The notes under the pieces were generated by a model, which worked only from the letters and a program-made list of their open reading frames with translations, did not search any database and was not told the DNA's origin. Positions 3,486-18,311 of a stretch of 64,000 nucleotides of DNA are shown in pieces. The first letter of the stretch is position 1. Each line of letters opens with the position of its first letter. The stretch lies in the NCBI RefSeq assembly GCF_026340675.1, contig NZ_JAPEOX010000002.1, forward strand, positions 2,379,747 to 2,443,746, read 5' to 3'. The position numbers were made by a program, and so were the translations under genes. Source of the stretch: Streptomyces sp. NBC_01264 (lineage in GTDB: Bacteria > Actinomycetota > Actinomycetes > Streptomycetales > Streptomycetaceae).

Positions 3486-3515
3486 GGATCGACCATCCAT
3501 GATGGACTCAATCAC

Positions 3516-3540
3516 TGTCAATATTGATTGAATCAATATT
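3516..3540. promoter_or_regulatory. Perfect inverted repeat between divergent citrate synthase genes
   Basis: Positions 3520-3529 (AATATTGATT) and 3531-3540 (AATCAATATT) are exact reverse complements around a single G. This is an unusually AT-rich 21-bp dyad in a GC-rich genome. Its left end overlaps a minus-strand TTGACA hexamer at 3516-3521, placing it where a bound protein would block transcription of the 2325-3485 gene. A TAGGGT hexamer at 3543-3548 could serve as a -10 for the plus-strand gene and imply a leaderless or nearly leaderless transcript. A smaller palindrome, TCCATGATGGA, sits at 3496-3506. The obvious candidate ligand is the HTH-bearing citrate synthase paralogue encoded alongside. 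Confidence 0.6.
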
Positions 3541-3555
3541 TGTAGGGTGTGCGTC

Positions 3556-4857
3556 ATGAGCGTCATGAACGACGAGCCCGATGAGCCGGGAGAGCCCGGT
3601 GGGCCCGGCGAGCGAAGGATCGGCACCCAGGAGGCCGCCCGGCTGCTCGGGGTGAAGCCCGCGACCGTGTACGCGTACGTCAGCCGCGGTCAGCTCACGA
3701 GCCGCCGCGACCCGGTCGGACGCTCCAGCAGTTTCGACGCCCGCGAGGTGGAGGCCCTGGCCCTGCGCAGCCGGCGCGAGGCGGCCGGTCCCCCCGGGGG
3801 CGCCGCCTCCGCCTCCGCCTCCGCCGGTGAGCTCTCCGTACGGACCGCGCTCACCCTCATCGAGTCCGGCAGGTACTACTTCCGTGGCGTGGACGCCGTG
3901 GAGCTGGCCTCGCGCCACCGCTACGAGGAGGTCGCCGAGTGGCTCTGGACGGGGACCATGGTGCCCGGGGCCCGGTTCACCGCTCCCCCGGAATCCCTCG
4001 CCGCCGCCCGGAGGGCGGTCGCCGCGCTGCCCGAGCACAGCGGTCCGATCGACCGGCTGCGGGTGGCCGTCGCCGCCGCGGCGGTCGCCGACCCGCTGCG
4101 CTTCGACCTGTCCGCGCCGTCCGTACTGGGCTCCGCGCGCGCCCTGATCCCCACCCTGGTCGGCGCTCTGCCCGAGGTGGGCCCGGCGCAGTGGGGCGGG
4201 GACGGACGCCTCTCCCGGCAGCTGTGGCCCCGGCTCTCCGCCCTGGACCCCGATCCGGACGCGCTGGCCGCCTTGGACCTGGCCCTGGCCCTGCTGACGG
4301 ACCACGACCTGGCCGCCTCGACCCTGGCCGTACGGGTGGCCGCGTCGGCGCGCGCGCATCCGTACGCGGTGGTCTCGGCCGGGCTCGGCGCGCTCGAGGG
4401 CCCGCTGCACGGAGCGGCCGGGCGGCTCGCGCACCGGATGCTGGTGGAGGTGCTGGAGCGGGGCGGCGCGGCTCCGGTGGTGGCGGAGTACCTGCGGGCC
4501 GGGCGCCGCGTGCCCGGGCTCGGGCACCGGCTGTACGAGGCCGAGGATCCGCGGGCCACGGCGCTGTTCGCGCGGCTGGAGCCGCTGGCGCAGGCGGGTC
4601 CGGCGCTGGGCGCGGCGCGCGAGGTGGCCGGGGTGATGGCCCGGCACGGCGGAGGCCTGTACCCCAATGTGGACCTGGCGCTGGCGGTGCTGACGGTCTC
4701 GTGCGGGATGGCCCCGGAGGCCGGGGAGACCGTCTTCGCGGTGGCCCGTACCGCCGGGTGGATCGCGCACGCGCTGGAGGAGTACGAGGAGCGCCCGCTG
4801 CGGATGCGGCCGAGCGGGCAGTACCACGGGCCCCGCCCGCCACGGCCGTTGCCGTGA
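3556..4857 (+). CDS. HTH domain-citrate synthase fusion, putative regulator/enzyme
   Basis: About 433 residues from the ATG at 3556 (GTG 3547 and ATG 3565 are alternatives). The N-terminal 75 residues contain an excisionase/MerR-like winged helix (IGTQEAARLLGVKPATVYAYVSRGQL...FDAREVEAL). The remainder is a citrate synthase domain. All three catalytic residues are retained: His285 in GPLHGAA, His324 in GLGHRLY and Asp373 in YPNVDLALA. Such HTH-citrate synthase proteins recur in actinobacteria, but their role is not well established. Linkage to a divergent citrate synthase and a shared perfect inverted repeat suggests metabolite-responsive control of its neighbour. Whether it also catalyses cannot be judged from sequence. 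An Ala/Ser linker (AASASASAG) separates the domains. Confidence 0.88.
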   Translation: MSVMNDEPDEPGEPGGPGERRIGTQEAARLLGVKPATVYAYVSRGQLTSRRDPVGRSSSFDAREVEALALRSRREAAGPPGGAASASASAGELSVRTALTLIESGRYYFRGVDAVELASRHRYEEVAEWLWTGTMVPGARFTAPPESLAAARRAVAALPEHSGPIDRLRVAVAAAAVADPLRFDLSAPSVLGSARALIPTLVGALPEVGPAQWGGDGRLSRQLWPRLSALDPDPDALAALDLALALLTDHDLAASTLAVRVAASARAHPYAVVSAGLGALEGPLHGAAGRLAHRMLVEVLERGGAAPVVAEYLRAGRRVPGLGHRLYEAEDPRATALFARLEPLAQAGPALGAAREVAGVMARHGGGLYPNVDLALAVLTVSCGMAPEAGETVFAVARTAGWIAHALEEYEERPLRMRPSGQYHGPRPPRPLP

Positions 4858-4941: not shown

Positions 4942-6555
4942 TCAGGTCCGCAGCCAGACCGCCGTGTCCTGACCGAGCAACCCGTCCGCACCCAGGGCGG
5001 AACTGCTCAGCAGGAGGCTCGTGTGGGCCGGCAGCGGGACCGGCTCCGGGGACAGGTTGGCCACGCAGACCAGCCCGTCGGGGCGGCCGAAGGCCAGCAC
5101 TCCGGGCGGCGCTGGCAGCCACTGAAGCGATCCGCCGCCGAAGCCGGCCGCGGCCCGGCGCAGGCCGAGGGCCGTCCGGTAGAGGGTGAGCATCGAGTCC
5201 GGGTCCCCGGCCTGGCGGTCCGCGGCGTACGCCGGCCAGTCCGCGGGCTGGGGCAGCCAGGGCTCGTTCCAGGGCTCCTCGGTCCACGGCAGCGGGACCC
5301 TGCACCCGTCCCGGCCGGGGTCGGTGCCGCCGGACCGGAAGTGCATGGGGTCCTGGATCTGGCCGAGCGGGATGTCGGCCTCGGGAAGCCCCAGTTCCTC
5401 GCCCTGGTAGACGTAGACCGCGCCGGGAAGGGCGAGGCTCAGCAGCGCGGCGGCCCGGGCCCGGCGGGTGCCGAGGGCCAGGTCGGCGGGGGTCCCGAAG
5501 GCCTTGGTGGCGAAGTCGAAGCCGGTGTCGGCGCGCCCGTAGCGAGTGACCGTACGGGTCACGTCGTGGTTGCACAGCACCCAGGTGGCCGGGGCCCCGA
5601 CGGGGGCGTGCTCGGCGAGGGTCTCCTCGATGGAGGTGCGCAGCTTGCCGGCGTCCCACGGGCAGCTGAGGAAGGAGAAGTTGAAGGCGGTGTGCAGCTC
5701 GTCGGGGCGCAGGTAGCGGGCGAACCGCTCGGAGTCCGGCAGCCAGACCTCGCCCACGAAGATGCCCCCGTACTCGTCGGCGATGGCGCGCCACGAGCGG
5801 TAGATGGTGTGCAGGTCGTCGCGGTCGATGTACGGGTGGATCTCGGGCCCGGGCGGCCACGGCTCGGCCGGGCGGTCGGCCAGGTCGGGCAGGGCCGGGT
5901 CCTTGGCGAGCAGGGCCGCGGAGTCGATCCGTACGCCGGCCACCCCGCGCTCGAACCAGAACCGCAGCACGTCCTCGTGCTCCCGGCGGACGACGGGGTG
6001 GTCCCAGTTGAGGTCGGGCTGCTCGGGCGTGAACAGGTGCAGGTACCACTCCCCGTCCGGAACCCTCGTCCAGGTCGCCGCTCCGTTGAACTGCGAGGGC
6101 CAGTCCCCCGGTGGCAGTTCGCCGTGCTCCCCGCGGCCCGGGCGGAAGTGGAAGAGCTCCCGTTCGGGGCTGCCCGGGCCGGCGGCGAGGGCGGCCTTGA
6201 ACCAGGCGTGCTGGTCGGACACGTGGTTCGGGACGATGTCGACAATGGTGCGGATGCCCAGCTCGCGGGCCTCGGCGATGAGCTTCTCGGCCTCGGCGAG
6301 GGTGCCGAAGGCGGGATCGATGGTGCGGTAGTCGGCGACGTCGTAGCCGCCGTCGGCGAGCGGGGAGAGGTACCAGGGGGTGAACCACAGGGCGTCGACG
6401 CCCAGTTCGGCGAGGTAGGGGAGGCGGGCCCGGACGCCCACGAGGTCACCGGTGCCGTCCCCGTCGCCGTCGGCGAAGCTCCGTACGTACACCTGGTAGA
6501 TGGCGGCCGAGCGCCACCAGTCGGCGGCGTTTTCGGGCAGGGGAAAGTCAGCCAC
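4942..6555 (-). CDS. GH13 alpha-glucosidase
   Basis: A 537-residue intracellular glycoside hydrolase family 13 enzyme with no signal peptide. The conserved regions are in order: DIVPNH (region I), GVRIDSA with the nucleophile Asp (II), FVGEVW with the acid/base Glu (III) and LCNHDVTR (IV, with the usual His-Asp pair). This pattern fits oligo-1,6-glucosidase/alpha-glucosidase enzymes that release glucose from short imported alpha-glucosides. The start is the GTG at 6555 preceded by AAAGGA. It follows the second ABC permease by 81 bp on the same strand and is likely the last gene of the transporter operon. The neighbouring secreted GH87 suggests nigero-type (alpha-1,3) oligosaccharides as possible substrates, which is inference; malto-oligosaccharides are the alternative. 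Confidence 0.92.
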   Translation of the reverse strand: MADFPLPENAADWWRSAAIYQVYVRSFADGDGDGTGDLVGVRARLPYLAELGVDALWFTPWYLSPLADGGYDVADYRTIDPAFGTLAEAEKLIAEARELGIRTIVDIVPNHVSDQHAWFKAALAAGPGSPERELFHFRPGRGEHGELPPGDWPSQFNGAATWTRVPDGEWYLHLFTPEQPDLNWDHPVVRREHEDVLRFWFERGVAGVRIDSAALLAKDPALPDLADRPAEPWPPGPEIHPYIDRDDLHTIYRSWRAIADEYGGIFVGEVWLPDSERFARYLRPDELHTAFNFSFLSCPWDAGKLRTSIEETLAEHAPVGAPATWVLCNHDVTRTVTRYGRADTGFDFATKAFGTPADLALGTRRARAAALLSLALPGAVYVYQGEELGLPEADIPLGQIQDPMHFRSGGTDPGRDGCRVPLPWTEEPWNEPWLPQPADWPAYAADRQAGDPDSMLTLYRTALGLRRAAAGFGGGSLQWLPAPPGVLAFGRPDGLVCVANLSPEPVPLPAHTSLLLSSSALGADGLLGQDTAVWLRT

Positions 6556-6636
6556 GGAGGGGTCCTTTCACGGCGTTCTTCTCACAGCGGTCTTTTCATG
6601 GGGGCGACCGGGCACGGCGGCGGTGCGGGGTGGTGC

Positions 6637-7512
6637 TCACCCCTTGAGGGAGCCTGCCGTCAGGCCGCTCATGATGTTGCGCTGGAAGATCAGGAAGATG
6701 ATGAGCGTGGGCGCCGAGGCCATCGCCAGCGCGGCGACGAGATGGTTCTCGGGAACTCCCCTGGCGAGTGAGTAGATGCCGACGTTGAGCGTCTGCAGGG
6801 CCGGGTCGGGGAGGGTGAGCATGGGCCAGAGGAAGTCTTTCCAGACCCCGACGACGGCGAAGATCGACACGACTCCGAGGATCGGCCGGGACATCGGCAG
6901 GACCACGGAGCGCAGGGTGCGCAGGGAGGAGGCACCGTCGATGGACGCGGCGTCGAGGATCTCGCCCGGGATGGAGTCGAAGAATCGTTTCAGAAGGAAG
7001 ATGTTGAAGGCGTTCGTGACCGAGGGCAGCCAGATCACCCAGGGCGTGTTGAGCAGGTTCCGCTCGATGAGCGGCATGTCCAGGACCGTGAGGTACTGCG
7101 GTACGACGAGGACGGTGGCCGGGATCATCAGCGTGGCCAGCATCATGCCGAGGACGGCTTTGCCGAAGACGGGCCGGAGCTTGGACAGCGAGTAGGCGGC
7201 GGCCACGTCGAGGACGAGCTGGAAGGCCAGGGCGCCGAACGCGTAGTAGAGGGTGTTGAACAGCAGCTTGGCGAGGTCCATGACTTCCCAGGCCGCCGAG
7301 TAGTTGTCGGGGTGCAGGGAGTCCGGCACCACGGTCGGCGGGACCTGGGTGAACTCCGCGGTGCTCTTCAGGCCGTTGGCGACCATCCAGTAGAGGGGAC
7401 CGAGGAAGACGACCGTGAAGCCGATGACCACCAGGGCCAGCACGGACCAGTAGACGATCTTGCCCCGGGGGCGGCCGAGCTGGGCCGGCGATATGAGCGT
7501 GCGCTCTGACAT
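6637..7512 (-). CDS. Carbohydrate ABC transporter permease, MalG type
   Basis: A 291-residue inner-membrane permease with about six transmembrane segments and the cytoplasmic EAA loop DAASIDGASSLRTLRSVVLPMSRP that contacts the ATPase. The N terminus (first TM around residues 20-45) and the C-terminal NIMSGLTAGSLKG tail are typical of the MalG/LacG group. It pairs with the MalF-type gene 15 bp upstream. No ATPase is encoded in the cluster. In Streptomyces, sugar importers of this class commonly share the MsiK ATPase encoded elsewhere, so this one probably does too. Confidence 0.93.
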   Translation of the reverse strand: MSERTLISPAQLGRPRGKIVYWSVLALVVIGFTVVFLGPLYWMVANGLKSTAEFTQVPPTVVPDSLHPDNYSAAWEVMDLAKLLFNTLYYAFGALAFQLVLDVAAAYSLSKLRPVFGKAVLGMMLATLMIPATVLVVPQYLTVLDMPLIERNLLNTPWVIWLPSVTNAFNIFLLKRFFDSIPGEILDAASIDGASSLRTLRSVVLPMSRPILGVVSIFAVVGVWKDFLWPMLTLPDPALQTLNVGIYSLARGVPENHLVAALAMASAPTLIIFLIFQRNIMSGLTAGSLKG

Positions 7513-7527
7513 GTGAGGGTGCTCCCG

Positions 7528-8436
7528 TCAGTTCTCGTTGTCGCGGCTCAGCCGGACGTACACGGCGGAGAAGCCGGCGAGCAGGACGAGCAGGCACAGG
7601 CCCAGGGCCGCGGCGCCGCCGTACTGGTTGAAACTGAAGGCGTACTGGTAGATGAGGACGACGACGGTGGTCGTCGACCCTTCGGGACCGGCACCGCCCG
7701 TCAGCATGAACGGCTCGACGAACACCTGCATCGTCGCGATGATCTGCATGAGCAGCATCAGCGAGAGGATGAGCTTGGTCTGCGGGATCGTGACGTACCA
7801 GATCTTGCGCAGCACCCCGGCTCCGTCGAGCTCCGCCGCTTCGTAGAGCTCCCCGGGGATGCCCTGGAGGGCTGCCAGGTAGATCAGGGTCGCGCCGCCC
7901 ATGTTCATCCACGTGGAAGCGATGACGACGGAGAGCATCGCGGTATCGGTGGATTGCAGCCAGTCTTGCGCCGGCAGGTGCAGGAATTCCAGAATCCTGT
8001 TGAAGACCCCGTAACCAGGGTCGTAGAAGTACTTGAAGAGCAGGATCGAGGCCACCGGCGGCATCATCACCGGGAGGTAGACCAGCAGGCGCAAGTAGCC
8101 CTGCGCGTGCCGGAATTCGTTGAGCACGATCGAGATCACGAACGGCACGGCGAAGCCGAGTACCAGCGCGAGCCCGCTGAAGAGCAGGGTGTTGCGCCAG
8201 GCCTGCCAGAACGCCGGGTCGTTGAAGACGTAGCGGAAATTGTCCCAGCCGACCCAGTGGACGGCTCCGCCCTCGGTCTTCTGGAAGGCCAGCAGGAACT
8301 CCCGGACCATCGGGTACCAGGAGAAGAAGGAGAAGCAGAGGACGGCGCCGATCAGAAAACCGTGGGCCGAGAGGTTCCGCTTGAACGCCCGGAGGAATTC
8401 CTCACGAGAGGTACCGGACAGGGTGGGAGCCGACAT
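7528..8436 (-). CDS. Carbohydrate ABC transporter permease, MalF type
   Basis: A 302-residue permease with about six transmembrane helices and the EAA motif EAAELDGAGVLRKIWYVTIPQTK. It forms the presumed heterodimer partner of the MalG-type permease immediately downstream. Gene order (binding protein, this permease, second permease, glucosidase) is the usual one for actinobacterial oligosaccharide import operons. It starts at the ATG at 8436, 105 bp after the stop of the binding-protein gene. Confidence 0.93.
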   Translation of the reverse strand: MSAPTLSGTSREEFLRAFKRNLSAHGFLIGAVLCFSFFSWYPMVREFLLAFQKTEGGAVHWVGWDNFRYVFNDPAFWQAWRNTLLFSGLALVLGFAVPFVISIVLNEFRHAQGYLRLLVYLPVMMPPVASILLFKYFYDPGYGVFNRILEFLHLPAQDWLQSTDTAMLSVVIASTWMNMGGATLIYLAALQGIPGELYEAAELDGAGVLRKIWYVTIPQTKLILSLMLLMQIIATMQVFVEPFMLTGGAGPEGSTTTVVVLIYQYAFSFNQYGGAAALGLCLLVLLAGFSAVYVRLSRDNEN

Positions 8437-8541
8437 CGCCGCTCGCTCCTTGGTGGGTCGTCGCCGTCGAATTGCTGGTACGGGGCCTGCGGGCGGGTCC
8501 GGGCCGGGGAGGCGGCCCGGACCTCCCCCGGCCGGTGCCCC

Positions 8542-9942
8542 CTACTGGTTGGCCAGCACCTGGTTGACGGCCTTCTCGGCCTCCGCGAGGAGCTGCGCCG
8601 TGTCGGCGTTCTTGTTGGTCAGGACCCCCGACATCACCTTGTCGAGGACCTTGTAGACCTCCTGGGCCTTCGTCGGCTCGGGCTTGCCGGCGACCGGGTT
8701 GTCCAGGAAGGACTTGAAGTTGACGACCGGCATGGTGGCGCTGGCGGCCTTCAGCTCGTCGTCCTTGGCCTTGCTGGCACCGGTGAAGAAGGCGGGCTGC
8801 GGAAGTCCGACCGGCAGACCGTCGGTCTTGGAGCGGTCGTACTGGAACTGGCCCTTGCCGACCGAGAGCGTCTTGAAGTTCAGCCAGGCGATGGCGGCCT
8901 TGACCTTGTCCGGCGAGCTGCCCTTCTTGATCATGTAACCGTTGCCTCCGGCCAGCGTCGCGGCGCCGCCGGGGATGGGGCCCATGCCGAAGTTCTCGTA
9001 CTTGGCTCCGAGCTGCTGGACCATGTACGTGATGTCGTCGGGAGCGGCGAGGAACATGCCGAGCTTGTCCGAGGCCATCTGCTTCTGCAGGTCGCCCCAC
9101 TTGAGCAGCTGGGTCTTGCCCATGCTGTCGTCTTCCCAGCGCATGGCCCTGAGGTTGTCGGCGACCTGCTTGCCGGTCGCGTTGTTGAAGGCCGCCTTGC
9201 CGTCGGCGCCGACGACGTCGCCGCCCAGGCCGTACATCGCGGCGGTGAAGTGCCAGCCGCCGGTGTTCTCGACGCTGTACTCGCCGTAGCCGGCGGTGCC
9301 GTTGCCGAGCGCCGCGATCTTCTTGGCGGCCGCGCGGACCTCGTCCCAGGTGCGCGGAGGCTGGTCGGGGTCGAGGCCCGCGTCCTTGAAGAGCTTGCGG
9401 TTGACCAGCAGGCCCATCGTGTAGTTGCTGGTGGGCAGGCCGTAGAGCTTGCCGTCCTGCTTCAGGGTGTTGACGACGTTCTTGTCGATGTCGTCGATGC
9501 CCGGAACCGTCTTGGCCGTGACGTACGCGGAGATGTCCTCGGCGCCGTCGTTGTCCAGCACCTGCTTGAGATCCGTGAAGTAGGCGTAGAAGACGTCCGG
9601 CTGCGACTTGGCCTTGAGCATCGCGGTGAACCGCGGGGGCTCCAGGCACTGGCCGGGGGTGGAGCGGCCTTCGATGGTGACGTTCGGGTAGGTCTTGTTG
9701 AACTCCGCCACGTCCTCCTTCCACTGCTTGAGCTCCGCCTTCTTCGCGGCGGGCGGCATGCAGTCCATGGAGATGGTGACCTTGGTCTTGGGGTCGAGCG
9801 GCGCGGAGGCGTCCGTGGAACCGCCGGACGGCTGGTTCTTGGTGTCGTCCCCGTCGCTGCTCGTGCCGCAGGCCGCGAGGGCGGTGACGGCGAGCGCCGA
9901 GACGAGGGCGGTCGCGGTGGTGCGGCGGATGTTGGTTCTCAT
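8542..9942 (-). CDS. Sugar-binding lipoprotein of ABC transporter
   Basis: A 466-residue extracellular solute-binding protein (family 1). The N terminus is a lipoprotein signal with lipobox LAAC, putting the lipidated cysteine at residue 25, followed by a Gly/Ser/Asp-rich tether. Body motifs such as YGLPTSNYTMGLLVNRKLF and GNGYMIKKGSSPDKVKAAIAWL are typical of oligosaccharide receptors. The ATG at 9942 is preceded by GAAGGGG at good distance, so the very long upstream open frame is not used. Its promoter region (9943-10100) contains an imperfect dyad with TTGCG/TGCGC half-sites. The ligand is not identifiable directly; the operon and nearby GH87 point to alpha-gluco-oligosaccharides. Confidence 0.92.
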   Translation of the reverse strand: MRTNIRRTTATALVSALAVTALAACGTSSDGDDTKNQPSGGSTDASAPLDPKTKVTISMDCMPPAAKKAELKQWKEDVAEFNKTYPNVTIEGRSTPGQCLEPPRFTAMLKAKSQPDVFYAYFTDLKQVLDNDGAEDISAYVTAKTVPGIDDIDKNVVNTLKQDGKLYGLPTSNYTMGLLVNRKLFKDAGLDPDQPPRTWDEVRAAAKKIAALGNGTAGYGEYSVENTGGWHFTAAMYGLGGDVVGADGKAAFNNATGKQVADNLRAMRWEDDSMGKTQLLKWGDLQKQMASDKLGMFLAAPDDITYMVQQLGAKYENFGMGPIPGGAATLAGGNGYMIKKGSSPDKVKAAIAWLNFKTLSVGKGQFQYDRSKTDGLPVGLPQPAFFTGASKAKDDELKAASATMPVVNFKSFLDNPVAGKPEPTKAQEVYKVLDKVMSGVLTNKNADTAQLLAEAEKAVNQVLANQ

Positions 9943-10035
9943 CGGTGGTCCCCTTCGAGCATCGAGCAGGAGGCGTGGGGCGTGTAAGGAGGCGAGCGCG
10001 GCACACTCAACCACCACCGACAGATGAACGCAATA

Positions 10036-10058
10036 TCTCGCGCAGATTTCGCAAGAGA
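10036..10058. promoter_or_regulatory. Candidate LacI operator upstream of binding-protein gene
   Basis: An imperfect dyad: TCTCGCGCAG at its left and TTCGCAAGAGA at its right, with matching TCTC--GC outer positions. Read on the minus strand it contains TTGCG-N5-TGCGC. The repeats before the LacI gene and the GH87 gene have the same half-sites with N7 spacing. It sits about 95 bp upstream of the binding-protein start, a plausible promoter location. Confidence 0.4.
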
Positions 10059-10100
10059 TTGGCAGCAGAGCGCCGGACTGCCCCAGCCGGGAACGCAAAA

Positions 10101-10139
10101 CAGGGCCCCGGAACGTCGGTTGGACGTTCCGGGGCCCTG
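10101..10139 (-). terminator. Intrinsic terminator of the LacI-family regulator gene
   Basis: A perfect 17-bp stem (arms 10101-10117 and 10123-10139, loop GGTTG), followed on the minus strand by CTGTTTTGCG, giving a short T run. It lies 37 bp after the regulator stop and before the binding-protein gene, and would insulate the two transcription units. Confidence 0.8.
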
Positions 10140-10175
10140 CGGCCGGGGGTTGGAGTCGGTGGAGTCCTGTGGGCG

Positions 10176-11195
10176 CTACGCCGGACGGGGGCGCGGGACC
10201 TGTGCGGTGGAGCCGCGCACGACGAGCTCGGGCTCGAAGAGCAGCTCCCCGGGCTGCACGGCGGCCCCCTGGATCTGCGCGGTGAGCAGCTCCACGGCAG
10301 CCCTGCCCATGGCCTCGATGGGCTGCCGGACGGTGGTCAGCGGGGGTTCGGTGCAGTTCATGAAGGCCGAGTCGTCGTACCCGACGACGGAGACCTCGCC
10401 GGGCACGTCCAGCCCGCGCCGGCGGGCTGCCCTGATGGCCCCCAGGGCCAGCGGGTCGCTCGCGCAGATGATGCCGGTCACCCCGCGGTCCAGCAGCCTC
10501 GACGTGGCCGCGTGGCCGCCCTCCAGGGAGAACAGCGCCCGCTCCACGTGCGCGGCGGGCAGCTCGGTGCCGGCCGCGGCGGCGACCGCCTGGGCGGCCA
10601 CCAGCTTGCGCAGGGAGGGGATGTGGTCGGGCGGGCCCAGCACCAGTCCGATGCGTTCGTGACCGAGGGAGGCCAAGTGGCGCCAGGCCTGTTCGACCGC
10701 GACGGCGTCGTCGCAGGAGACGCACGGGAAGCCGAGGTCCTCTATCGAGGCGTTGATGAGCACCACCGGGACCTTGCGGTCGTGGAGCAGCCGGTAGTGC
10801 CCGTGCGGGGCGTCGGCCTGCGCGAAGAGCCCGCCGGCGAAGACGACGCCGGACACCTGCTGCTGGAGCAGGAGCTCGACGTAGTCCGCCTCGGAGACCC
10901 CTCCGGTGGTCTGCGTGCAGAGCACCGGGGTCAGCCCCTGCTGGGCCAGTGCCCCGCCGATCACCTCGGCGAAGGCGGGGAAGATCGGGTTCTGGAGTTC
11001 CGGCAGGACCAGGCCGACCAGCCGGGCCCGTTCGCCGCGCAGCTGGGTGGGGCGCTCGTAGCCGAGGACGTCCAGGGCGGTGAGCACGGACTGGCGGGTC
11101 GCGTCCGAGACGCCCGGCTTGCCGTTGAGCACCCGGCTGACCGTTGCCTCGCTGACCCCCACCTTCTTCGCCACTTGAGCAAGTCGTCGCGTCAT
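10176..11195 (-). CDS. LacI-family transcriptional regulator of the sugar operon
   Basis: A 339-residue LacI/GalR protein. The N-terminal HTH (RLAQVAKKVGVSEATVSRVLNGKPGVSDATRQSV) is followed by a hinge helix and a periplasmic-binding-like sensor domain (residues about 60-335). The ATG at 11195 begins exactly at the HTH; the upstream 45 in-frame codons are dismissed. It is collinear with, and just upstream of, the binding-protein/permease/glucosidase genes, a layout like malR-malEFG in S. coelicolor. Its own promoter carries GCGCAAG-N4-GCGCAAA and TGCAAG-N3-CTTGCA repeats, suggesting autoregulation. The same direct repeat appears before the GH87 gene. The inducer is unknown. Confidence 0.93.
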   Translation of the reverse strand: MTRRLAQVAKKVGVSEATVSRVLNGKPGVSDATRQSVLTALDVLGYERPTQLRGERARLVGLVLPELQNPIFPAFAEVIGGALAQQGLTPVLCTQTTGGVSEADYVELLLQQQVSGVVFAGGLFAQADAPHGHYRLLHDRKVPVVLINASIEDLGFPCVSCDDAVAVEQAWRHLASLGHERIGLVLGPPDHIPSLRKLVAAQAVAAAAGTELPAAHVERALFSLEGGHAATSRLLDRGVTGIICASDPLALGAIRAARRRGLDVPGEVSVVGYDDSAFMNCTEPPLTTVRQPIEAMGRAAVELLTAQIQGAAVQPGELLFEPELVVRGSTAQVPRPRPA

Positions 11196-11197
11196 GA

Positions 11198-11233
11198 GCG
11201 CAAGAGTAGCGCAAACAATGCAAGTTCCTTGCA
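11198..11233. promoter_or_regulatory. Operator-like repeats upstream of the LacI gene
   Basis: Two elements. The direct repeat GCGCAAG (11198-11204) and GCGCAAA (11209-11215) has half-sites 11 bp apart, one helical turn. Next comes a perfect inverted repeat TGCAAG-TTC-CTTGCA (11219-11233). They cover the first 40 bp before the start codon, so bound protein would block the promoter or early transcript. CTTGCAG-type half-sites resemble those described for MalR/Reg1-controlled Streptomyces promoters. Confidence 0.55.
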
Positions 11234-11318
11234 GTTCGATTACGGCCAGTTTGGCCCATCGGAAACCGGCGCGGAACCCCCCGCGTCCCACCGGCCCCGG
11301 CACGGCTCCGGGCGGCGA

Positions 11319-11351
11319 GCGGCGGGGCACCCCGAAGGGATGCCCCGCCGC
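11319..11351 (-). terminator. Terminator hairpin after the GH87 gene
   Basis: Arms 11319-11329 (GCGGCGGGGCA) and 11341-11351 are perfectly complementary (11 bp), and the interior CCCGAAGGG can pair further. It lies 26 bp past the GH87 stop on the minus strand, separating it from the LacI gene. Confidence 0.7.
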
Positions 11352-11377
11352 CCTCTGAGCCCTGGATCCGCCGCCCG

Positions 11378-14300
11378 CTACGGCAGCTGGTTGATCTTGA
11401 ACGTCGAGGTCGTGTTGCGCACGTCCACGGCGTTGTCACTCATCCTCAGATTCTGGATGGTGACCTCACCCACCGCGGGCCCTTGTCCCGCCTCGGGCAT
11501 TTCGTTCGCCCAGAGACCGAAGCCGGACTTGGCGTCGAAGGCGTCACCGCTCTTCTTGGCCCCCGTGATGGTGATGTCCTTCAGGATCGTGTCCTTGATG
11601 GGATTGACCGGCTGGCCGCCCACGTACTGCGTCTGGAACATGATGCCGCTGTAGGTCGGATCGACGATGTCCACGTTGTTGATGCGGATTCCCTGGAACA
11701 CCTTGGAAGCCGAGAAGATCCAGATTCCAGGGAAGGTCTGCGCCCCCCAGAAATGGCCTCCGGCCCGGACGATCGAGATGTTCTCGAAGAGCGTCGGGTC
11801 GGTCCCGAATCCGTTCATCGGATACCCGAAGTCCAGCGAACTGATGGTGATGCCCGAGTAGACGAGGATGTCGGCGATGTAGATGTTGCGGAAGGTGTTG
11901 TTGAAACCGCCGTAGACGGCGACACCGGCCGCGCGCCAGGTCAGGATGGCGCTCAGGTTCTCGTAGACGTTGTTCTTCATGTCCGCGCCGCCCGCGTCGA
12001 TGGCGGAGAACAGCGCGAAGCTGTCGTCACCCGTGGAGCGCGCCTCGATGTTGGCCACGAGGTTGTCCGTGCTGCCGTTGGTCATGTTGATGCCGTCGGC
12101 GAAGGTGTCACGGATCCGCGAGTTCTTGATCGTGATCCGGTCGGTGTTGGCGCCCCAGTAGAGGCACACCTGGTGTTCGTTCCAGACGTTGTCGATGGTC
12201 ATGTCGGTCACGTTGGCGAAGTCGAAGACCTTGCCCGGGCCGTCGATGCGCGAGGTGTAGTTGCCGAAGTAGGCGAACCCGGTGAAGGATGAGCCCTTCG
12301 CGGTGCCCTCCGCGCGCCAGCCGTTGTCGGTGTTGTCCTGCGTGGACGGGGCGTGGAAGCGGGTGAACCACGGTCCGGCGCCCACGACCTGCACGGCCTT
12401 GCCGTACACCTGGAACTTGCTCGCCGTGGCGTAGTCGCCCGGCGGCAGGTAGACGCCCACGAGCTTGCCCGTGGTGTCCATGCGGACCTTGTCCAGGGCG
12501 TTCTGCACGTCCTGGTGGGTGAAGCCTGCGGGCACCGTGTAGGTGGCCGGGTCGGGGTTGGCGATCACCGTGGCCTGTTCCAGGCTCACGAAGTCGATCG
12601 CGTAGGTGGTGGTGTTGGCCGCGTCCTTCTGGAGGCGGATCTTGCTGCCCGCCGGGACGGTCTCGCCGAGGAGGATGTTCGCCTCGTCGTAGATGTGCCG
12701 CGGGGCACCGGCGCTCGGGGCGTTGCCCGGGCCGGCCTCGGCCCCGTAGAGCCACGCGTACTTGGAGGTCAGCGGCAGGGCCTTCTTCAGGACGCCGTTG
12801 ACGTAGACGTTGATGGTGGAGTCGATGCCGCCGCCGCCCGGGGCGTCCGGGATGGAGAAGCGGGTGACCAGGGTGTTGGTCGCGGCCCGGGTGGTGAACT
12901 CGACGTACTCGCCCGTCGCGTCCAGTTTCACGGCCTTGCGGCCCGAGGCCTCGCCCGCGATGTCGCCGATGGTCCGGTTGGGTCCGACGACATTGGCGCC
13001 GCCGCCGACCGTGCCGTCCTCCGCCTCGTAGGTGTCGTAGGGCATGTTCGCCCCGCGGCCGACGAAGAAGGGCTTGGTGGAGGTGTTGTTGGCGCGCTTG
13101 ACCGGCAGTTCGTTGGCGTCGTCTGCGAGGACCACCTTGACGGTGTACTTGCCGTTGGTCGCGGTCCAGCTGCCGAGCGGGATCGGGGCCGTCGAGGCAC
13201 CGGCCGCGAGGGCGCCGCTGAAGGAGCTCGTCTGCGTACGGACGGTCGCGCCGCCCGCGTCCAGCAGCGCGAGGGTCACGTTGTGGGTGCCCGTGGCCGC
13301 GGCCACGGTGCCCTGGTTCTTGACCGTCACGGAGAAGTTCACCGTCTGGCCCGCGGACGGGGCGCTCGGCGACCAGTTGACGTCCGAGGCCACCAGGTCC
13401 GAGCTGTCGACGGGGCGGACCACCAGCGGGGAGCCGGTGAGGCTGTTGTTGGTGTCGTTCTGCTCGACGACCGTGTTCGCCTCGTCGACGATCGCGCTCA
13501 GCGGGTAGGTGCCCGCGTCGCGCGGTCCGATGCCGGCCGTGACGGTGGCCGAGGCGCCGGCGGCCAGCGCGGGCACGTTGGCGGTGGCGACCTTCGAGCC
13601 GCCGAGCTGGAAGGAGACGACGGTCGCGGCCGCCGGGGCCGGGCCGGTGTTCTTGACGGTGGCGGACAGGGTGACGGGGTCCGACTCGACCGGGGCGGCC
13701 GGGGCGGCGCTCACCGCGGTGACCTGGAGGTCCGGGTTGGGCGCCGCGACCCCGAAGACCTGGAACTCGGCGATCTGGCCGTTGGAGGAACCGGTGTTGG
13801 AGGTGAAGCGCAGCTGCACGTCCGCGACCCGGGCGTTCACCGGGATGGTGACGGTGTTGGAGCCGGAGGCCGGGTTGAAGACGTAGTCCTTGGCGGCCAC
13901 CAGGCCGGTGACGCCCGGGGCGCTCTGCTCGCGGCCGAGCACCTGGATGTTCTGGGTGCGGGTGCCCCAACTGCTGTCCGGGTTGAGCTTGAGGACCAGG
14001 CGGTCGACGTCGGCGTTGGCGCCGAGCTTGACGGTCAGGGTGCTCGGGTAGGCGCCGCCGGCGCCCTCCCAGTAGGTGGAGGTGCTGTTGTCGTTGGCGT
14101 TCTCCGCGACGAAGGTATGGATCACGGAGGAGCCCTCGATGGGCTTGCCGACGGCCAGGTTGGAGCCGCCCCCGCCGCCGCTGCCGTTGCGGGTCACGGA
14201 GTTGCTGTCGCCGGAGCGGTTGCCCGCCGCGTCCTTGGCCCGGACGAAGTAGCTCACGGTGGCGGTGGCCGGCTGGGTGTCCGTGTAGGTGGTGACGTTG

Positions 14301-15670
14301 CCCGCGACCGTGGTGAGCAGGACGTTGTTGGCGAACACCTCGTAGCCGGTGACGCCGGTGTTGTCGGTGGACGCCTGCCAGGCCAGCTTGATCTGCCCGG
14401 AGGCCGGCTCGGTGAAGGTCAGCGCGCCCGGGATGGTCGGGGCCTGGGTGTCACCGGTGTCGCCGGCGCGGGTGACGCTGTTGCTGTTCCCCGACTGGTT
14501 GCCGGCCGCGTCCTTGGCCCGGACGTAGTAGGTCACGCTCGCGGAGGCCGGCTGGGTGTCGGTGTAGGTGGTGACGTTGCCCGCGACGCTGGTGCGCAGC
14601 TGATTGTTGGCGTAGACGTCGTACCCGGTGACGCCCGTGTTGTCGGTCGCCGCGTTCCAGGTGAGCTTGATCTGGCCCGTCGCCGGCTCGGTGTAGGCGA
14701 GCGCCGTCGGGGCCGTCGGGGGCTGGGTGTCGCCGGTCGTCGGGCCGTAGATCTCCAGCTCGGAGAGCTGCCCGCCGGGCTGTACGGAGTTGGACGCGAT
14801 CCACACCCGTACGTAACGGGTGGTGGTGGCGTCGAAGGCGATGCTCACCGTGTTGGAGCCGGCGGGCGTGAAGTCGTACCCCTTGGACGCGGTCAGGTCG
14901 AGGTAGTCCGTGCCGTTGGCGCTGCCCTGGATCTTGAGGGTCTGGGTACGGGCGCCCCAGTTCTCGGGGAGCTTGAGGACCACGCGGTCCACGCGGACGG
15001 AGGAGCCGAGGTCGGCCTGGAGCCACTGGGGCATGGCGTTGTTGACGCTCTCCCAGTAGCTGGCGGCGTTGCCGTCGTTGGCGTTGCCCGGCACGTAGAC
15101 CTGGGTGTTGCTGCTCGCCGTGAGCGTCTTGCCGAGGGCCAGGTTGGTCCCGGACTCACCCGGGGCGCGGACCTCCAGCTCGGAGAGCTGGGCGGCCTGC
15201 CAGCCGGTGTTGGCGGTGATGTCGATCCGCACGTACCGGGCCTGGGTGGCCGGGAAGCCGATGGTGACCACGTTTCCGGCGCCCTGGCCGAAGGTGTACG
15301 TCGCCGAACTCACCAGGGTGCTGAAGCTGGTGCCGTCGGCGCTGCCCTGGACGGACAGGGTCTGGTTGCGGCTCTCCCAGGAGGCGGGGAGCTTGAGCAC
15401 CACCTGGTCGACGCGGGTGGTGGCTCCGAGGTCGGTCTGCACCCATTGCGGGAAGGTGCTGCCGGCGCTCTCCCAGTACGTGGCCTGGTTGCCGTCGGTG
15501 ACGTTGCCGGCCGCGTAGGCGCCGTTGGTACTGCTCGCCGTGGCGGGCCTGCCCGCCGAGACGCTCGGTCCGCCGGCGGCCACGGCGGTCAGAGCGGGCC
15601 AGCCCAGCATCAGCAGGGCGGTGCTGATCAAGGCGGCCAGGGTCCGCCATCTCCAGTTGTGCCTTCTCAT
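11378..15670 (-). CDS. Secreted multidomain GH87 alpha-1,3-glucanase/mycodextranase-like enzyme
   Basis: A 1430-residue secreted protein from the ATG at 15670 (RBS GAGGAC). In order: signal peptide (1-~32), two F5/8 type C (discoidin) domains (~33-170, ~173-311), two nearly identical fibronectin III repeats (~316-405, ~406-495), a third discoidin-like domain (~502-642), two CARDB domains (~644-757, ~758-870), a CBM6/35-like module (~872-1035; YDTYEAEDG...) and a right-handed beta-helix catalytic domain (~1037-1430). DTFADGIN and STGDDSF place Asp1192, Asp1215 and Asp1216 with the 23/24-residue spacing I recall for the catalytic aspartates of GH87 alpha-1,3-glucanases. The likely substrate is fungal-wall or bacterial alpha-1,3-glucan. 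It adjoins an oligosaccharide import operon and shares an operator motif with its regulator. Confidence 0.88.
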   Translation of the reverse strand: MRRHNWRWRTLAALISTALLMLGWPALTAVAAGGPSVSAGRPATASSTNGAYAAGNVTDGNQATYWESAGSTFPQWVQTDLGATTRVDQVVLKLPASWESRNQTLSVQGSADGTSFSTLVSSATYTFGQGAGNVVTIGFPATQARYVRIDITANTGWQAAQLSELEVRAPGESGTNLALGKTLTASSNTQVYVPGNANDGNAASYWESVNNAMPQWLQADLGSSVRVDRVVLKLPENWGARTQTLKIQGSANGTDYLDLTASKGYDFTPAGSNTVSIAFDATTTRYVRVWIASNSVQPGGQLSELEIYGPTTGDTQPPTAPTALAYTEPATGQIKLTWNAATDNTGVTGYDVYANNQLRTSVAGNVTTYTDTQPASASVTYYVRAKDAAGNQSGNSNSVTRAGDTGDTQAPTIPGALTFTEPASGQIKLAWQASTDNTGVTGYEVFANNVLLTTVAGNVTTYTDTQPATATVSYFVRAKDAAGNRSGDSNSVTRNGSGGGGGSNLAVGKPIEGSSVIHTFVAENANDNSTSTYWEGAGGAYPSTLTVKLGANADVDRLVLKLNPDSSWGTRTQNIQVLGREQSAPGVTGLVAAKDYVFNPASGSNTVTIPVNARVADVQLRFTSNTGSSNGQIAEFQVFGVAAPNPDLQVTAVSAAPAAPVESDPVTLSATVKNTGPAPAAATVVSFQLGGSKVATANVPALAAGASATVTAGIGPRDAGTYPLSAIVDEANTVVEQNDTNNSLTGSPLVVRPVDSSDLVASDVNWSPSAPSAGQTVNFSVTVKNQGTVAAATGTHNVTLALLDAGGATVRTQTSSFSGALAAGASTAPIPLGSWTATNGKYTVKVVLADDANELPVKRANNTSTKPFFVGRGANMPYDTYEAEDGTVGGGANVVGPNRTIGDIAGEASGRKAVKLDATGEYVEFTTRAATNTLVTRFSIPDAPGGGGIDSTINVYVNGVLKKALPLTSKYAWLYGAEAGPGNAPSAGAPRHIYDEANILLGETVPAGSKIRLQKDAANTTTYAIDFVSLEQATVIANPDPATYTVPAGFTHQDVQNALDKVRMDTTGKLVGVYLPPGDYATASKFQVYGKAVQVVGAGPWFTRFHAPSTQDNTDNGWRAEGTAKGSSFTGFAYFGNYTSRIDGPGKVFDFANVTDMTIDNVWNEHQVCLYWGANTDRITIKNSRIRDTFADGINMTNGSTDNLVANIEARSTGDDSFALFSAIDAGGADMKNNVYENLSAILTWRAAGVAVYGGFNNTFRNIYIADILVYSGITISSLDFGYPMNGFGTDPTLFENISIVRAGGHFWGAQTFPGIWIFSASKVFQGIRINNVDIVDPTYSGIMFQTQYVGGQPVNPIKDTILKDITITGAKKSGDAFDAKSGFGLWANEMPEAGQGPAVGEVTIQNLRMSDNAVDVRNTTSTFKINQLP

Positions 15671-15795
15671 ATGTCCTCGTCCCTCGACATGAACTTTCTG
15701 AACCACAAGAGCGACAAATTTGCGGTACGCGGTGCGAGAGTTGCAGAGCTTTGGCGAGTCGTCTACATCTCTGACCGCATTTTCACACCGTCATT

Positions 15796-15817
15796 GCTTG
15801 CGCAAGCTGGGCGCAAA
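15796..15817. promoter_or_regulatory. Operator-like palindrome and repeat upstream of the GH87 gene
   Basis: The perfect 12-bp palindrome GCTTGCGCAAGC (15796-15807) overlaps the direct repeat GCGCAAG-N4-GCGCAAA (15800-15817). The repeat is identical in half-sites and spacing to the one in front of the LacI gene. It lies about 126-147 bp upstream of the GH87 start and about 70 bp upstream of the divergent histidine kinase start, so either gene could be affected. Confidence 0.55.
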
Positions 15818-15885
15818 TAGCGAAAGCCATTTGCGTGAGGGACCCACATTCCGCTTACGCCCGAATCGGCCTACGGTTCGTACTC

Positions 15886-17517
15886 ATGCAGTCCCCGCGG
15901 TTCCTCCCCATGAGCGCTCGGCGCCTCGGGCTGCCCCGGCGGGCCGCCTCCCAGATCCTGCTGACCCAGCTGGCCATCGCCGCCGGGGTGCTCGCCCTGG
16001 CCACCGGCCTCTTCCTGGCCCCGCTGAGCGCGCAGCTCGACGACCAGGCCATGCGGCGCGCCCTGGCCATCGCGCAGAGCACCGCGGCCGACCCCTCCGT
16101 GGCCGCCGGCCTCCTCGGCTCGGCTCCCTCGCCCGACAGCCCGGTACAGGCCTCCGCGGAGCGGATCCGCTCCGCCACCGGCGCCGAGTACGTGGTGGTC
16201 ATGGACCTGGACGGCGTCCGCCGCTCGCACCCGAGCCCCGACCGCATCGGGCGGCCCGTCTCCACCGACCCCCGCGACGTCCTGGCCGGCCGCGAGGTCA
16301 TGGAGATCGACGAGGGCACCCTGGGCCGCTCCGCGCGCGGCAAGGTCCCCCTCCTCGCCGCAGACGGCGAGATCGTCGGCGCCGTCTCCGTCGGCATCGC
16401 CTACGACAGCGTCCAGGGCCGCCTGCTCGGAGCCATCCCGGGCCTGCTCGCGTACGCGGGCGGCGCCCTGGCCACGGGCGCCCTCGCCGCCTATCTGCTC
16501 TCGCGCAGGATCCACCGGCAGACCCGTGACCTGGCCTTCTCCGATATCGCGGGCCTGCTCGCCGAACGCGAGGCGATGCTGCACTCCATCCGGGAAGGTG
16601 TGATCGCCCTCGACCGGACCGGCCGGGTCCGGCTGGTCAACGACGAGGCGGCCCGGCTGCTGGGCCTCGCGCCCGAGGCCGCCGGAGCCGTCGCGGGGCG
16701 CGCCCTGGACGAGGTGCTCGGCGCGGGCCGCACCACCGACGTCCTCACCGGCCGGGTCACCGGCCGCGACCTGCTCACCGTCCAGGGCACCCGGGTCCTG
16801 GTCGCCAACCGGATGCCCACCGAGGACGGCGGAGCCGTGGCCACCCTGCGCGACCGCACCGAGCTGGAGCACCTGGGCCGCGAGCTCGACTCCACCAAGG
16901 GCCTGATCGACGCCCTGCGCGCCCAGGACCACGAACACGCCAACCGGCTCCACACCCTCCTCGGCCTGCTGGAACTGGGCCTGTACGAGGACGCCGTGGA
17001 GTTCGTCACGGAGGTGGTCGGCGTGCACCGCAGCACCGCCGAGCAGGTCACCGAGAAGGTGCACGACCCCCTGCTCGCCGCCCTGCTGATGGGCAAGGCC
17101 ACGGTCGCGGCGGAGCGCGGGGTCCCCCTGCGGCTGGCTGATTCCGCCCTGCTGCCCGACCGCCTCGTCGACCCGGGAGGCCTGGTCACCATCCTCGGCA
17201 ACCTGGTCGACAACGCCCTGGACGCCTCGGTCGGCTCCCCCGCACCGCTGGTCGAGGTCGACATCCGGGCGGAGGGCCGCACCGTGGTCCTGCGGGTCCG
17301 TGACAGCGGCCCCGGCGTGCCGGCGGCGCGCCGCGAGGAGATCTTCACCGAGGGCTGGTCGACCAAGCAGCCCCGGGCGGGCGCCCACCGCGGACGCGGG
17401 CTCGGTCTGGCCCTGGTACGGCGCCTGGCCGAACGTCAGGGCGGCACGGTCCGGGCCGGCGAGGCGACCGGCGGAGGGGCGGAGTTCTCCGTCGTCCTTC
17501 CGGAGGCCCTGCGATGA
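15886..17517 (+). CDS. Sensor histidine kinase, CitA/DcuS type
   Basis: Predicted 543 residues from the ATG at 15886 (ATG 15910 is an alternative; neither has a strong ribosome site). A first transmembrane helix near residues 25-45, an extracytoplasmic sensor (about 45-170, containing TGAEYVVVMDLDGVRRSHPSPDRIG), a second helix (about 183-205), a cytoplasmic PAS domain (LHSIREGVIALDRTGRVRLVNDEA) and a kinase core. The phospho-acceptor region is QDHEHANRLHTLLGLLELG of the Spo0B-like class; the ATPase has GNLVDNALDA and DSGPGVP/GRGLGLALV boxes. Family members sense external carboxylates. The gene overlaps the response regulator by ATGA and faces a sodium:solute symporter operon. Confidence 0.92.
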   Translation: MQSPRFLPMSARRLGLPRRAASQILLTQLAIAAGVLALATGLFLAPLSAQLDDQAMRRALAIAQSTAADPSVAAGLLGSAPSPDSPVQASAERIRSATGAEYVVVMDLDGVRRSHPSPDRIGRPVSTDPRDVLAGREVMEIDEGTLGRSARGKVPLLAADGEIVGAVSVGIAYDSVQGRLLGAIPGLLAYAGGALATGALAAYLLSRRIHRQTRDLAFSDIAGLLAEREAMLHSIREGVIALDRTGRVRLVNDEAARLLGLAPEAAGAVAGRALDEVLGAGRTTDVLTGRVTGRDLLTVQGTRVLVANRMPTEDGGAVATLRDRTELEHLGRELDSTKGLIDALRAQDHEHANRLHTLLGLLELGLYEDAVEFVTEVVGVHRSTAEQVTEKVHDPLLAALLMGKATVAAERGVPLRLADSALLPDRLVDPGGLVTILGNLVDNALDASVGSPAPLVEVDIRAEGRTVVLRVRDSGPGVPAARREEIFTEGWSTKQPRAGAHRGRGLGLALVRRLAERQGGTVRAGEATGGGAEFSVVLPEALR

Positions 17518-18311
17518 GCGACCTCGACGAACCCGGCGCATCCAGCGCATCGGGCGCGCTCCGTGCTTCCCGCGCGTTCAAGGCTCCCGGCGCGTCCACC
17601 GCACCCACCGCACCCACCGCTTTCGACGTGCTGGTCGTCGACGACGACCTGCGCGTCGCCCGGATCAACGCGGCCTACGTGGCCAAGGTGCCCGGCTTCC
17701 GCGTGTCGGCCCGGGCCCATTCGGCGGCGGAGGCACTGGCGCTCCTCGACTCCCGCCCCGTGGACCTGATCCTCCTCGACCACTACCTCCCCGACGAGAA
17801 CGGCCTCGACCTGGTCCGGCGCCTGCGCGAACGCGGTCACCGCACCGACGTGATCATGGTGACGGCCGCCCGCGACCTGGCCACCGTCCAGGCCGCCATG
17901 CGCCTCGGCGCCCTCCAGTACCTGGTCAAACCCTTCACCTTCACGGGCCTGCGCACCCGACTGGAGGCCTACGCGGCCCTGCGCCGCACCCTGGACACGG
18001 GCGGCGAGGCCGAACAGGCGGAGGTCGACCGGATCTTCGGCGCCCTCGCCGCGGCCGGCGCCGACGCCCCGAGCGATCTCCCGAAGGGCCACTCCCCCAC
18101 CACCGCCGACCTGGTCCGCGGCATCCTGCGCGCGGCCGAAGGCCCGCTCTCCACCCAGCAGATCGCCGACCGCGCGGGCATCAGCCGCCAGACCGCCCAG
18201 CGCTACCTCAAGCTCCTCGACCGCGCCGGCCGCGTCGTCCTCGCCCTGCGCTACGGCGAAACGGGCCGCCCGGAACACCGGTACGCCTGGCGCCCGCCCA
18301 CCACGGGCTGA
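17514..18311 (+). CDS. Response regulator, CitB/DcuR type
   Basis: 265 residues. An Ala/Ser/Thr-rich leader of about 38 residues precedes a receiver domain (FDVLVVDDDLRVARI, phospho-Asp in LILLDHYLPD, Thr in MVTAAR, Lys in YLVKPF). A C-terminal helix-turn-helix follows (LSTQQIADRAGISRQTAQRYLKLLDRAGRV). The start ATG overlaps the kinase stop (ATGA), indicating translational coupling. The leader is unusual and could instead mean that translation starts further in, but no better start lies close to the receiver. Candidate targets are the convergent symporter/DUF485 genes. Confidence 0.92.
   Translation: MSDLDEPGASSASGALRASRAFKAPGASTAPTAPTAFDVLVVDDDLRVARINAAYVAKVPGFRVSARAHSAAEALALLDSRPVDLILLDHYLPDENGLDLVRRLRERGHRTDVIMVTAARDLATVQAAMRLGALQYLVKPFTFTGLRTRLEAYAALRRTLDTGGEAEQAEVDRIFGALAAAGADAPSDLPKGHSPTTADLVRGILRAAEGPLSTQQIADRAGISRQTAQRYLKLLDRAGRVVLALRYGETGRPEHRYAWRPPTTG

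Follow-up and report, generated by a model that had tools for sequence, protein, structure and literature searches.

α-1,3-Glucan shields the walls of fungi and strengthens dental plaque (PMC5753165, PMC12394665; all PMC articles are cited from excerpts, except where the main text is named). In Lachnoclostridium phytofermentans, the GH65 nigerose phosphorylase Cphy1874 and the GH31_u1 protein Cphy_1877 are encoded in a cluster with a nearby putative enzyme of glycoside hydrolase family 87 (GH87), an ATP-binding cassette (ABC) transporter, and a LacI regulator (PMC9061262). The sites of MalR-type regulators are built from CTTGC(A/T)G half-sites, arranged as inverted and as direct repeats (PMC5526262). 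Three binding proteins for related sugars have been described. CMMBP of Arthrobacter globiformis (7BVT) and Lmo0181 of Listeria (5F7V) bind cyclic tetrasaccharides, the latter cyclic nigerosyl-nigerose (PMC7676653), and for PsMBP nigerose binding was confirmed, without a dissociation constant (PMC13311272). Here, we analyze a window of 64,000 nucleotides from Streptomyces sp. NBC_01264 (contig NZ_JAPEOX010000002.1, positions 2,379,747 to 2,443,746), in which a gene for a secreted GH87 enzyme adjoins a lacI gene, the genes of an ABC importer, and a GH13 α-glucosidase gene. We regard this as likely to be a substrate-inducible α-1,3-glucan utilization locus under LacI control, a reading that is well supported computationally.

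Gene organization of the locus

The initial annotation had placed a GH87 glucanase directly beside a LacI regulator, an ABC importer, and a GH13 enzyme. Pfam bore this out: all six genes are on the minus strand (4942-15670) and are transcribed in the order GH87, lacI, lipoprotein, two permeases, GH13. The GH87 enzyme, here GH87a (11378-15670), is a predicted α-1,3-glucanase of 1430 amino acids (aa) with the Pfam domains CatAgl_D1/D2. It is followed by a MalR-like LacI-family regulator of 339 aa (10176-11195), with a LacI helix-turn-helix and a sugar-binding domain; its gene runs in the same direction as the importer genes and is thus not divergent from them. The importer is composed of a sugar-binding lipoprotein (8542-9939; SBP_bac_1, lipobox LAAC by eye), a MalF-like permease (7528-8436), and a MalG-like permease (6637-7512), both with BPD_transp_1. 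The last gene (4942-6555) encodes the GH13 α-glucosidase (Pfam Alpha-amylase), whose nearest solved structures are 8yif and 8yie. NCBIfam gave zero equivalogs above cut-off for the six proteins.

A proposed shared operator element

A repeat, GCGCAAG-N4-GCGCAAA, had been noted before lacI and before the GH87 gene. Exact copies lie at 11198-11215 and 15800-15817, and allowing two mismatches adds no further copy in the window. Exact matches averaged 0 over 200 Markov-shuffled windows; with two mismatches allowed, shuffles averaged 0.86 matches, and at least two were found in 21 of 100. Both sites were confirmed, but the repeat does not stand alone as a direct repeat. It forms the end nearest the gene start of a longer element with an inverted half-site, CGCAA-N4-CTTGC, which is also present in the lacI promoters of other species. 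The proposed operator of lacI covers 11198-11233 (minus strand), with TTGCA-N5-TGCGC-N5-TTGCG at 11199-11223 and GCAAG-N3-CTTGC within 11219-11233. The one proposed before GH87 (15800-15835, minus strand) has the same layout, with one altered half-site (TTTCG) that is intact in close relatives. A dyad described at 10036-10058, before the binding-protein gene, proved to be related to these sites, but it is better described as a further copy of the element whose last spacer is one base longer, TTGCG-N5-TGCGC-N6-TTGCG at 10029-10054 (minus strand). The core is TTRCR-N5-TGCGC-N5-TTGCG at lacI and GH87 (N5 form), with a last spacer of N6 at the importer (N6 form).

These patterns were searched in the whole genome of 10.67 Mb. 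With at most one mismatch, the N5 form occurred in two places, the lacI and GH87 promoters, and its reversed control pattern in three. The N6 form matched exactly only at the importer promoter, and with one mismatch at three more places (control: six with at most one). A further pattern matched without mismatch at lacI, with one mismatch at GH87, and with two at two other places.

Two features of these promoters were also observed. A −10-like TACTCT lies about seven bases ahead of the lacI ATG (11193-11210) and is overlapped by the proposed operator; with so short a distance, the lacI mRNA may be leaderless. Many GH87a promoters (15706-15780 in the window; L004-L083 among the relatives) have in common, ahead of the ATG, a block GTAGACG...TCTCTGCAACTCTCTGACCGC. 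By eye, in part of the upstream sequences, this block is present also where the LacI element is missing; it is perhaps the core promoter or the site of a second regulator.

The element in other Streptomyces

Upstream regions of 57 lacI, 80 GH87, and 55 binding-protein genes were taken from 80 named loci, which had been selected by GH87 alone and some of which end at contig ends. Readings by eye rest on part of these sequences; matrix and pattern counts used all of them. Most of the lacI promoters viewed read approximately CGCAA-N4-CTTGC-N5-TTGCG-N5-CTTGCG on the coding strand and end a few bases from the ATG. In close relatives, the GH87 promoters match this layout in half-sites and spacing alike.

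For a matrix, 45 lacI promoters from other species, 41 of them unique, served as the training set. Training omitted nine of the 57 loci with LacI of at least 92% identity, L044 (partial), and L065 and L080 (no alignable site). In the window, this matrix scored 43.9 bits at the lacI site, 22.2 at the GH87 site, and 6.7 at an unrelated place; maxima in 20 shuffled windows ranged from −3.0 to 15.9, with three above 10. The GH87 site thus stands out by a matrix derived from lacI promoters. At 10 bits, the 80 loci gave 83 matches: 55 at lacI, 21 in GH87a upstream regions (14 of them labeled by the divergent kinase gene described below), and seven elsewhere. The reversed sequence gave eight, the best at 14.8 bits.

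A second set consisted of 94 further neighborhoods selected by LacI alone, with the window and three second lacI copies inside retrieved stretches omitted. Some species occur in both sets, and several neighborhoods end at contig ends (e.g., L138, L141, L178, L184, L210, L217, and L218). At 15 bits, the matrix made 102 matches here, at 94 of the 97 lacI genes and eight other places, and none in the reversed sequence. All eight sit at GH87a-promoter distance from the catalytic domain of that gene.

The two spacer forms separated by promoter type. In the 80 loci (1.83 Mb, at most one mismatch), the N5 form was found at 46 of 57 lacI and 14 of 80 GH87a promoters and at three other places (control, one), and the N6 form at 49 of 56 importer promoters and one of 80 GH87a promoters (control, three). 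In the 94 neighborhoods (1.79 Mb), N5 matched 81 of 97 lacI promoters, six of 30 GH87a promoters, and one other place. The N6 form was present there at 24 of 25 importers of the window type, 29 of 38 of a second type, and six other places; controls were 0 for both forms. Importers were counted through binding-protein matches of at least 500 bits (25 and 38). Among GH87 genes, whose subtypes a, b, and c were assigned by best query, N6 matched four of nine GH87b, four of 30 GH87a, and one of 36 GH87c; the four at GH87b and the four at GH87a are probably the same, between divergent genes. Other last spacers gave one match (N4) or none (N7). The N6 element is common to two importer types that are only 41-50% identical, or 42-47% in a second comparison.

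Linkage of the genes across the genus

Within 10 kb in the 80 loci, and subject to identity floors, LacI was present in 57, the binding protein of the window type in 56, and GH13 in 56. The linkage is kept in rearranged gene orders (L014, L040, L056, L062, L065, and L068). We also searched 151 Streptomyces genomes for LacI (E ≤ 1e-130), GH87 (E ≤ 1e-100), and the binding protein (E ≤ 1e-90). LacI was encoded in 86 and GH87 in 54; 53 had both, one (G046) GH87 alone, 33 LacI alone, and 64 neither. LacI was thus present in 53 of 54 genomes with GH87 versus 33 of 97 without it (Fisher p = 2e-16, relatedness ignored). The binding protein occurred in 84 of the 86 LacI genomes and in 0 of the other 65. 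By hand count, LacI and GH87a are about 10 kb or less apart in 31 of the 53 genomes.

Around the LacI genes of the 94 neighborhoods, we found a GH87 of any subtype in 66, the binding protein in 72, GH13 in 67, and all three in 54. From the five GH87 genes of the source genome alone, we estimate that a GH87 gene would fall within 20 kb by chance in about 1% of cases. Three GH87 subtypes recur beside this LacI. The commonest order is LacI-importer-GH13-GH87c, all codirectional (32 of 94, hand count), and GH87c lies within 600 bases behind GH13 and in its direction in 35 of 36 cases. Many species combine this LacI and GH13 with other importers and GH87 subtypes, so that these two look like a constant core, with the glucanase and importer as exchangeable parts.

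Some loci have their own arrangement. GH87b (about 1140 aa) lies between lacI and GH87a in L014 (6553-9969) and is divergent from GH87a in L143-L145 and L158. In L013, GH87a, LacI (90%), and GH13 (77%) are kept, and an importer with 46-60% identity has taken the place of the usual one, as in a cassette swap. L138 resembles L013 but ends ahead of GH13.

α-1,3-Glucan is a polymer of fungal walls, and the window's GH87 carries discoidin domains. Both would suit an enzyme serving mainly in antagonism through lysis of fungal walls, with uptake of the products incidental. That GH87 genes are repeatedly linked to importer and cytosolic glucosidase genes, often within a single putative operon, argues against this, and we hold it to be very improbable. 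Growth on the polymer has been reported for a species with the locus: Streptomyces poriferorum isolates Alt1, Alt2, and Alt4 use mutan as sole carbon source (PMC11475409). The type strain (L019) carries GH87a, importer, and GH13; the reported growth is that of other isolates of the species. The words "LacI" and "transporter" do not occur in the main text of that article.

The GH87 enzyme, the importer, and the intracellular glucosidase

The start of GH87a was set at the ATG at 15670, which is also the start in relatives; a longer GTG frame was not adopted. A signal peptide is apparent by eye, and the protein further contains three F5/8 type C (discoidin) domains, an FN3-like domain, two CARDB domains, and C-terminal CatAgl_D1 and CatAgl_D2 (267 and 354 bits; Pfam cut-off, 27 each). 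Residues 862-1414 match the α-1,3-glucanase 6k0m with 411 bits, and the catalytic part alone with 414. Asp1192, Asp1215, and Asp1216 align with the three Asp residues changed in the mutant chains 6k0p, 6k0q, and 6k0s; in the alignment to 6k0m, FADGIN and GDDSF are kept, so that the catalytic Asp triad is intact. Family and catalytic residues point to α-1,3-glucan as the predicted substrate.

The binding protein shares about 20% sequence identity with S. scabiei MalE (8ART), so it is not orthologous to the MalE of Streptomyces. Its best match in the PDB sequences was 7bvt, with 65 bits, too weak to name a ligand. An AlphaFold model (predicted local distance difference test score 87.5, 33 sequences) was compared by Foldseek and VIA-align; binders of α-glucan, β-glucan, chitin, sulfoquinovose, and nucleotides fell within a few Z units of each other, and the absence of a family from this match list carries no meaning. 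Pfam showed no ATPase among the six cluster proteins; a binding protein and two permeases with no ATPase gene beside them are in keeping with an importer of the CUT1 type. OB_MalK matched at three places in the genome, and the best, a 367-aa frame at C1:4643143, is a candidate for a shared importer ATPase of the MsiK type, which we take to be the kind that serves this importer.

No signal peptide was seen by eye in the GH13 enzyme. Among the matches listed in a literature search (CmmB/GH13_30), there was no paper on 8yif and 8yie, whose label is "α-glucosidase" only. The Pfam scan matched GH13 and GH87 domains among the cluster proteins and found no GH65 or GH31 domain. This touches on another explanation, in which the polymer is of mixed linkage (nigeran/mycodextran, α-1,3/α-1,4) and the imported oligosaccharide contains both bonds, with GH13 cutting the α-1,4 ones. 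An intracellular GH13 in place of a GH65 or GH31 α-1,3 enzyme would fit it, as would the several GH87 subtypes. The mycodextranase of Streptomyces is presumably a GH87 member. Such an enzyme is among the Streptomyces enzymes named in PMC11475409. The nearest solved GH87 is 6k0m, which speaks weakly for α-1,3-glucan, since all six matched sequences were named α-1,3-glucanase and a mycodextranase could not have come nearest. The growth of S. poriferorum isolates on mutan also argues against mixed linkage (PMC11475409). We consider it unlikely, though not separate from the α-1,3-glucan reading: the logic of the locus is the same and the polymer is another, so that our probabilities for the readings do not sum to one.

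The LacI regulator and its paralogues

The regulator is 54-56% identical to three paralogues of the same genome. Two of these are in a mal-like locus (L102), separate from the window, where GH13 paralogues are 53-56% identical to the window's enzyme. Another paralogous set of the genome (L101; G000:C2:680000-699000) contains GH13, GH87, two permeases, a binding protein, and LacI; its LacI is 55% and its GH13 60% identical to those of the window.

The half-sites of the MalR type, in inverted and direct repeats, suggest that the window LacI works like a MalR. The locus could then be a second maltodextrin system, in which malto-oligosaccharides are the sugars handled by the importer and GH13, the window LacI responds to maltose-type sugars as a paralogue of MalR, and GH87 is a neighbor under the same switch as α-glucans co-occur. 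The identity to the paralogues in L102, the GH13 nature of the glucosidase, and the likeness of the CTTGC half-sites to MalR/AcrC sites (PMC5526262) favor this view. It is at odds with the existence of L102 itself as a separate mal-like locus, with the low identity of the binding protein to MalE, and with the recurrence of three GH87 subtypes beside LacI, and it appears to us improbable, more so than a mixed-linkage polymer. A MalR-like pattern, CTTGCAG-N11-CTTGC, occurred in three places in the genome and nowhere in the locus, and was dropped. In the main text of an article on LacI regulons (PMC4052901), "glucan" and "nigero" occur 0 times.

Published quantitative PCR primers for SCO7014 of S. 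coelicolor (PMC3610822) match this LacI without mismatch in L017 and L072 and with one mismatch in eight further loci, S. coelicoflavus L020 among them. They had no match to the window lacI, L101, or L102 at up to two mismatches per primer. SCO7014 was up in the first compartmentalized mycelium (PMC3610822). Since these primers match the LacI of relatives, SCO7014 is very likely the S. coelicolor counterpart. The SCO numbers next to it presumably hold the importer.

Neighboring genes

Divergent from GH87 are genes for a sensor kinase (single cache, PAS, SPOB-type) and a response regulator (15835-18311, plus strand), a pair that we take to be CitA/DpiB-like and that adjoins GH87 in 16 of the 80 loci. 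On the other side, the gene at 3547-4857 (plus strand) encodes a citrate synthase domain with an N-terminal HTH_17/MerR-type helix-turn-helix; its neighbor, a second citrate synthase gene (2325-3626, minus strand), is transcribed divergently from it. This fusion is possibly an enzyme-derived regulator.

Proposed mechanism and its weight

In the mechanism that we propose, the secreted GH87, with its discoidin domains probably holding the polymer, would cut α-1,3-glucan (fungal wall glucan or mutan) to short oligosaccharides. The lipoprotein and two permeases, powered by a shared MsiK-type ATPase encoded elsewhere, would import these, and the cytosolic GH13 α-glucosidase would convert them to glucose. 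Without substrate, LacI would sit on the multi-half-site element at its own, the GH87, and the importer promoters; as in LacI/MalR relatives, an imported oligosaccharide would release it. The regulatory link of LacI, GH87, and importer is proposed from the shared sites, at which repressor binding is predicted. Likewise, cleavage of α-1,3 bonds by GH13 and nigero-oligosaccharides as the imported sugar are suppositions.

Several observations weigh against this proposal. The numbers of genome matches are no more than chance (the further pattern at up to three mismatches gave 145 reversed-control matches versus 69), and the placing of the best ones is what is telling. Of the expectation from a genome-wide motif scan, therefore, only the placing at the promoters of the locus counts, because reversed control patterns match as often. 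The patterns were composed after viewing the promoters, which makes counts on those promoters partly circular; the controls in reversed locus sequence, and the very small number of matches at other places in the loci, are free of this circularity. By the lacI-derived matrix, the importer site does not stand out (6.4 bits, with three of 20 shuffles higher), and at 10 bits 0 of 55 importer promoters are found. In 14 of the 94 neighborhoods, LacI is without any partner. GH13 α-glucosidases mostly act on α-1,4 or α-1,6 bonds. The fold matches of the modeled binding protein do not separate ligands, and as those with different ligands score alike, its own ligand is not tellable from them. Finally, GH87a promoters seldom carry the element, which means that direct control does not extend to this GH87 throughout the genus. 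The single LacI regulon for α-1,3-glucan of the initial annotation agrees with the computational tests, in that other genome sites are few and both the sites and three GH87 subtypes recur in relatives, but for GH87a the site extends to only 14 of 80 and six of 30 promoters.

A broader proposal, made tentatively and at somewhat less than even likelihood, is that more than half of the sampled Streptomyces species have dedicated, LacI-switched import of nigero-oligosaccharides from α-1,3-glucan. It would have a constant LacI and GH13 core, exchangeable GH87 and importer, and, as the element read by the repressor, an unusual set of direct TTGCG half-sites with a last spacer of five (regulator and glucanase) or six (importer), and the GH13 would be an oligosaccharidase acting on α-1,3 bonds. 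If true, a switchable pathway tied to the LacI of 86 of 151 Streptomyces genomes would explain how many of these bacteria use α-1,3-glucan as food. Importer, glucosidase, and a reporter switch, all for nigero-oligosaccharides, could then be drawn from the locus, and SCO7014 of S. coelicolor gains a testable role.

Comparison with known systems

The GH87 of the window has its catalytic domain in common with the solved α-1,3-glucanases 6k0m, 5zru, and 7c7d; the Asp triad was compared residue by residue for 6k0m only. With the MalR/AcrC regulators and malEFG loci of actinomycetes (PMC5526262), the locus shares the LacI subfamily and CTTGC-type half-sites, inverted and direct. There, acrC is head-to-head with malEFG, whereas the window lacI is codirectional and has a GH87 partner. 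Gene order, the binding protein's identity of about 20% to MalE, and the separate mal-like locus show that this is not a malR-malEFG locus.

The initial annotation had called dedicated nigero-oligosaccharide import not well described, which has to be trimmed in view of the Lachnoclostridium cluster, Lmo0181, and PsMBP; with the latter two, uptake of the nigerose type has precedent. The ligands of CMMBP and Lmo0181 are cyclic with α-1,6 bonds (PMC7676653), and the window binding protein is 17-21% identical to these proteins. Among the matches listed for open-licence PMC articles (title and start of abstract), no paper dealt with the LacI, importer, and GH87 set in Streptomyces.

The nearest described system is the cluster of L. 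phytofermentans (PMC9061262), in which GH87, ABC importer, and LacI likewise stand beside an intracellular enzyme, there one for α-1,3-oligosaccharides. The Streptomyces locus differs in having GH13 instead of GH65/GH31, in its phylum, and in its predicted shared operator. It is thus a GH13-bearing version of the described GH87/ABC/LacI type of cluster.

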